A stretch of DNA of 21,074 bases from Deltaproteobacteria bacterium RBG_13_61_14 (GTDB taxonomy: Bacteria; RBG-13-61-14): positions 21,792 to 42,865 of the forward strand of contig MGQK01000034.1 in the NCBI GenBank assembly GCA_001797815.1. Direction: 5' to 3'. Made by a program: the position numbers and the translations under genes. The notes beneath the pieces are model-generated. The model was not told the origin of the DNA. It was given only the letters and a program-made list of their open reading frames with translations, and ran no database searches. This document shows positions 20,736 to 21,074 of this stretch, piece by piece; within the stretch, counting starts at the first letter, position 1; the number at the start of each line of letters is the position of its first letter.

Positions 20736-20812
20736 ACGCCCATAGCTCAGCTGGATAGAGCGAGTGGCTACGGACCACTAGGTCGGGGGTTCGAATCCTC
20801 CTGGGCGTACCA
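20736..20812 (+). tRNA. tRNA-Arg (anticodon ACG)
   Basis: A complete 77-base cloverleaf with encoded CCA. The acceptor ACGCCCA pairs with TGGGCGT. The D arm is GCTC/GAGC, the anticodon stem AGTGG/CCACT with loop CTACGGA (anticodon ACG), and the T arm GGGGG/CCTCC around TTCGAAT. It reads CGU, and after A34 is changed to inosine, also CGC and CGA. Confidence 0.95.
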
Positions 20813-20825
20813 TTTCCCCGAAGAC

Positions 20826-20852
20826 AAGGCGAAAACGCCTTTTTCTAATTTT
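20826..20852 (+). terminator. Intrinsic terminator between tRNA-Arg and tadA
   Basis: A perfect six-base stem, AAGGCG (20826-20831) and CGCCTT (20836-20841), with an AAAA tetraloop, followed by TTTCTAATTTT. It ends right at the tadA start codon. Confidence 0.8.
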
Positions 20853-21074
20853 ATGGACCGGGGCACCTCGGCGCTCGATTTCCGTTACATGCAGGCCGCC
20901 CTGCGCCAGGCCGACCAAGCCGCGGCCCGGGGCGAGGTGCCGGTGGGCGCGGTGGTGGTGTCGGGCGGAAAGATCGTGGGCCGGGGCTATAACCTCCGCG
21001 AAGCCAAGCACGACCCCACCGCCCACGCCGAAATGATCGCGCTCCGCCAGGCGGCGCGCAAGCTCCAAAGCTGG
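20853..21074 (+). CDS. tadA: tRNA-specific adenosine deaminase TadA (5' part, runs off window)
   Basis: Seventy-four residues from ATG 20853 to the window edge, with no stop. The fragment shows the TadA N-terminus: [20 protein letters not shown], then [19 protein letters not shown], and the zinc/catalytic HAEM (His58, Glu60) that deaminates A34 of tRNA-Arg(ACG) to inosine. The second zinc motif PCxxC lies beyond the window. No Shine-Dalgarno sequence precedes the ATG; the upstream bases are the T-run of the terminator. It lies 41 bases after the tRNA-Arg(ACG) gene that encodes its substrate. Confidence 0.93.

Follow-up and report, generated by a model that had tools for sequence, protein, structure and literature searches.

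A tRNA-Arg(ACG) gene directly ahead of tadA is an old and widespread bacterial gene pair

The 21,074-nt stretch of DNA analyzed here (the window) ends in a tRNA-Arg(ACG) gene followed on the same strand by the start of tadA, whose product edits a single tRNA in bacteria, tRNA-Arg(ACG), as established for E. coli. The edited form, tRNA-Arg(ICG), is a house-keeping tRNA in nearly all bacteria and no optional extension of the code. The locus raises the question of whether the genes for enzyme and substrate stand side by side by chance or in a conserved order and, if the latter, what retains it. ARAGORN called the tRNA-Arg at positions 20736–20812 (+ strand), with the anticodon ACG at 20770–20772 and an encoded 3′ CCA; the same gene matched Rfam RF00005 (63.7 bits, E 5.6e-12), and its CTACGGA corresponds, by sequence and pattern match, to CUACGRA, the anticodon loop of the TadA substrate. 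It was the sole ACG tRNA found in the genome, both in a separate ACG pattern search and in a whole-genome search with the 77-nt tRNA as query, which returned the window copy at 100% and four other matches at 76–82%, three of them identified as different tRNAs (Met CAT, Arg CCT, and Ala CGC) and the fourth without a tRNA call.

The tadA gene starts 40 nt past the end of the tRNA, and its 5′ part (20853–21074, + strand; 74 codons, identified by profile matches) runs from the ATG at 20853, with a second in-frame ATG at 20891 as an alternative start, to the end of the contig. Since contig and window stop at the same nucleotide, the second half of the gene and the PCxxC zinc ligands are out of view; the best NCBIfam match of the truncated protein was TadA NF008113 (E 3e-19, profile positions 9–71 of 165), at 69 bits against a full-length cut-off of 150, and the TadA of a genome of the same order (G001) clears that cut-off at 151.2. 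The window protein also matched Pfam PF00383 and PF14437, scored higher as TadA than as RibD (69 versus 32 bits), and carries the N-terminal EVPVGAV (within EVPVGAVVV) and the catalytic HAE motif. ARAGORN, Rfam, NCBIfam, and Pfam thus agree with a sequence-only reading of the locus, which had placed a tRNA-Arg(ACG) cloverleaf right before tadA.

The distribution of this arrangement was assessed at tadA loci gathered from unrelated genomes, with ARAGORN run around each. The loci sampled were among the stronger matches to TadA, with one to a few taken from each family, a choice that should be independent of linkage, and a locus was scored as linked when the HAE codon and a same-strand Arg(ACG) were at most 480 nt apart, which puts the tRNA within roughly 310 nt of the tadA start. 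Arg(ACG) was found upstream on the same strand in 35 of the 125 families with a located tadA, in 20 of them at no more than 200 nt from the HAE codon, against a chance expectation of ∼0.006 families (125 × 310/(2 × 3.2 million)), calculated from tRNA position alone and assuming one Arg(ACG) gene per about 3.2 Mb; the tight pair was absent from about 72% of the sampled families. In a scan of 80 named loci, which are the top hits of a single set of queries rather than a fair sample and whose names are mostly those of metagenome bins, carriers of the pair covered eight phyla: Myxococcota (3/5 loci linked), Nitrospirota (1/2), Planctomycetota (2/16), Omnitrophota (2/2), and Poribacteria, Elusimicrobiota, Aquificota, and Pseudomonadota with one linked locus each. 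None of the 33 named Bacillota loci had the Arg(ACG)-tadA pair. Within the phylum, the comparison took in two further genomes from the order of the window, both in a different family (the order relatives), and tRNA-Arg(ACG) was just upstream of tadA in both.

The pair is therefore real, old, and widespread, and the earlier claim that it is conserved rather than accidental is borne out by the families, the named phyla, and the order relatives alike. Chance adjacency, or an insertion aimed at the tRNA gene, retains practically no probability; tRNA genes often serve as integration sites, which would favor insertion, but the excess over the expected number of families and the order kept in both relatives already refute it. 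Conservation does not extend to rpoD, the next gene upstream of the tRNA (18921–20687, + strand; profile matches), which had been proposed for comparison as part of an rpoD-tRNA-tadA order: the tRNA-tadA part recurs in the two relatives, whereas the gene ahead of the pair in both is not rpoD. A sigma-factor match was found at only three other tadA loci, each weaker, and rpoD was rejected as a member of the unit.

Upstream and downstream of tadA, the flanking tRNAs differ in kind. Counted by family, the nearest upstream tRNA within 480 nt was Arg(ACG) in 35, Arg(CCG) in 2, Arg(CCT) in 1, and Ser(GCT) in 1, and the nearest downstream tRNA within 300 nt was Ser in 65 of the 125 families (55 CGA, 9 GGA, 1 GCT) and Ala in 1. 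A tRNA-Ser is thus the commoner neighbor of tadA (65 versus 35 of 125 families), and no tRNA-Ser is known as a TadA substrate. With Ser downstream and Arg upstream, tRNA-Arg–tadA–tRNA-Ser is the most fitting notation for the old unit; an additional genome from a later pattern search (G333) has the order Arg(ACG)–Ser–tadA. At nine of the surveyed loci (L010, L021, L031, L067, L079, L097, L111, L130, and L140), the ARAGORN start of tRNA-Ser precedes the tadA stop codon, so that the genes overlap and the 5′ part of the tRNA-Ser gene encodes the end of TadA. Separately, Arg(CCT), which is not known as a TadA substrate, replaces Arg(ACG) ahead of tadA at four Bacillota loci, on the same strand, and in two genomes of one family (L142, L159, L191, L207, L016, and L052).

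Three further genes, tgt, miaA, and tilS, served as controls. No tRNA of any kind was found nearby at 30 tgt loci, and miaA had one nearby at 2 of 30 loci, both Gly; nothing at these two genes is comparable to the tRNA-tadA adjacency. At tilS, a CAT tRNA lay upstream in 8 of 30 loci (L222, L224, L225, L228, L234, L237, L241, and L246). By comparison to reference tRNAs of E. coli and B. subtilis, this tRNA resembles elongator Met, and a second CAT tRNA with an Ile2-type acceptor stem, judged by the same references, sits elsewhere in all eight genomes. The substrate of the TilS enzyme is tRNA-Ile2, and elongator tRNA-Met must be rejected by it. A general rule that wobble enzymes adjoin their own substrates was accordingly discarded, since the tilS neighbor is Met-like and not tRNA-Ile2; a conserved tRNA next to a wobble enzyme need not be its substrate. 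Given the more frequent tRNA-Ser at tadA and the tRNA-Met at tilS, adjacency alone is no proof of enzyme-substrate selection, or of the proposed co-evolution of the two genes as enzyme and substrate; an enzyme-substrate reason for the pair is plausible.

Genomes without the tight pair bear on its age. The ACG pattern located the tRNA in 64 of 80 unlinked genomes, and in 14 unlinked genomes both genes were on one contig and no more than 20 kb apart; in 11 of these 14 (G333 included), the tRNA was upstream of tadA on the same strand at 0.2–12 kb, compared with a random expectation of one quarter. This bias points to an ancestral adjacency that was opened by insertions and is decaying. Copy number was rejected as a cause of linkage, as linked and unlinked genomes do not differ: in each of the 31 linked genomes with a pattern hit, no ACG gene was detected besides the linked tRNA, and the ACG tRNA was single-copy in 62 of the 64 unlinked genomes as well. 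On the TadA protein tree, which is poorly resolved, the linkage label changed 30 times versus 32.1 when shuffled, with no extra clustering; counting gains from this tree was abandoned, as gains and losses are inseparable at its resolution.

A decaying order could be a frozen ancestral neighborhood, in which Arg, tadA, and Ser stood in a tRNA-rich stretch of an early bacterium and survived passively wherever lineages rearrange little, the link to the substrate being coincidental. We regard this as less likely than not. It fits the same-strand distance decay in the unlinked genomes, the tRNA-Ser downstream of tadA in more than half of the families, and the position of tilS beside elongator tRNA-Met instead of its own substrate. 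However, a tight spacing of 6–60 nt over many phyla would be long-lived for an unselected order, no comparable relic exists at miaA or tgt, and the tRNA ahead of tadA, with few exceptions, is either the substrate or a different tRNA for Arg. Slightly better than even, in our judgment, is the probability that Arg(ACG)-tadA is an ancient pair, often with tRNA-Ser behind it, that has been retained through joint expression.

Joint expression can be considered most directly where the genes are closest. In many linked loci tadA starts 6–60 nt past the tRNA. An ordinary promoter would not fit into so short a gap without reaching into the tRNA gene, which makes co-transcription likely; a joint tRNA-tadA transcript is the simplest reading of these loci. 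Transcription, processing, and the reason for retention, as we infer them for this compact form, would be that the tRNA promoter drives a single tRNA-mRNA transcript, that 3′ processing of the tRNA frees it from a tadA mRNA whose leader is then very short, and that TadA output thereby tracks the output of its substrate tRNA.

The spacer of the window is arranged differently. A terminator-like hairpin, AAGGCG-AAAA-CGCCTT with a T tail, was identified by a hairpin scan between tRNA and tadA at 20826–20846 (+ strand; about −7.7 kcal/mol), ending about 7–11 nt ahead of the ATG at 20853; the sequence-only reading of the locus had overlooked it. With six pairs it is short, 2.7 such sites are expected by chance in the region, and by itself it is not significant; its weight lies in recurrence, as each order relative has a hairpin and T run at the corresponding place, with stems that differ in sequence and energies of −9.0 and −10.8 kcal/mol. 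Hairpins of this kind also occur in families f75 (two genomes) and f126 (one genome). A T run directly 3′ of the tRNA, considered as a terminator in the wider set, was no more than suggestive, its frequencies (20/40 linked Arg loci, 25/71 tRNA-Ser, and 17% of random positions) coming from rows that are not independent.

Promoter-like sites lie on both sides of the tRNA, each identified by consensus match. A candidate tRNA promoter, TTGACT-17-TAACCT (8/12), is located at 20696–20724 (+ strand), and a TTGAC box precedes the tRNA at a similar position in both order relatives. A possible weak tadA promoter, AAGACA-17-TCTAAT (9/12), at 20821–20849 (+ strand), overlaps the hairpin, and a transcript from it would begin at or just past the ATG at 20853.

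Bacterial mixed tRNA-mRNA operons exist, for example the tRNA-tufB transcript of E. coli, and the pair resembles them in that the tRNA directly precedes a protein gene on one strand with a short spacer in many lineages. In the window, tRNA and tadA share a strand and are closely spaced, but the spacer contains the predicted hairpin, with counterparts in both relatives, instead of being terminator-free; as this hairpin is a putative terminator, the window was not classed as a mixed operon. Unlike tRNA-tufB, moreover, the protein of the pair modifies that very tRNA, the pair spans phyla, and in the window a putative terminator separates the two genes.

Simple co-transcription is doubtful in the window genome, where a predicted terminator between the genes means that tadA would need either read-through from the tRNA or its own, weak promoter. 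The earlier suggestion of shared expression is thus plausible at the loci with 6–60 nt spacers and is opposed by the terminator-like hairpin in the window and its two relatives. One possibility, to which we give somewhat less than an even chance and which is compatible with the other readings, is that in this genome the two are mere neighbors, one promoter and a terminator serving the tRNA and a separate weak promoter, AAGACA-17-TCTAAT, serving tadA. The boxes on both sides and a T-tailed hairpin whose position is kept in the relatives are consistent with such independence, but the hairpin is short and of a kind expected by chance in the region, neither box matches the promoter consensus well, and transcription from the box ahead of tadA would begin at the ATG at 20853 or just past it. 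For the order of the window, attenuated read-through is favored, with the weak local promoter as the main alternative: the tRNA would use its own promoter-like box, most transcripts would end after the tRNA at the terminator, and a small read-through fraction, or the local promoter, would yield TadA, which is needed in far smaller amounts. The tRNA could also act as a regulatory leader, its folding, 3′ processing, or binding by TadA controlling termination or translation of tadA; this is improbable, but if true, the level of TadA would be matched to that of its unmodified substrate.

Clusters of enzymes with a dedicated tRNA are known from selC with selAB and pylT with pylS, which likewise encode a tRNA next to the proteins acting on it; unlike selC and pylT, which serve optional extensions of the code, the tRNA of the present pair is a house-keeping one. 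In B. subtilis, the neighborhood of the same enzyme gene is yaaJ(tadA)-scr-dnaX-yaaK-recR, with scr-dnaX downstream; the four Arg(ACG) genes, named trnB, trnE, trnI, and trnJ, belong to other tRNA clusters (PMC10454642). No description of the tRNA-Arg(ACG)-tadA pair was found in full-text searches of the open-access literature, which for TadA covers specificity, essentiality, and mRNA editing, and the pair may be new. What the survey adds is that the genes for an important decoding enzyme and for the tRNA it acts on hold one order over many bacterial phyla. A functional link would provide a simple transcript-level setting of enzyme to substrate and a clear test of whether selection maintains the placement of a stable RNA gene next to that of the enzyme modifying it; the pair can also be used as a practical marker to locate either gene where genome annotation is poor.

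Elsewhere in the window, LarA-type nickel racemase-like and 3-keto-5-aminohexanoate cleavage enzyme (KCE)-like genes, both under their family score cut-offs, overlap by about 38 nt at 1941–4101 (− strand). An open reading frame at 4094–5068 (− strand), between the KCE-like gene and an exonuclease-like gene, resembles by eye a REP-associated (IS200-like) transposase.
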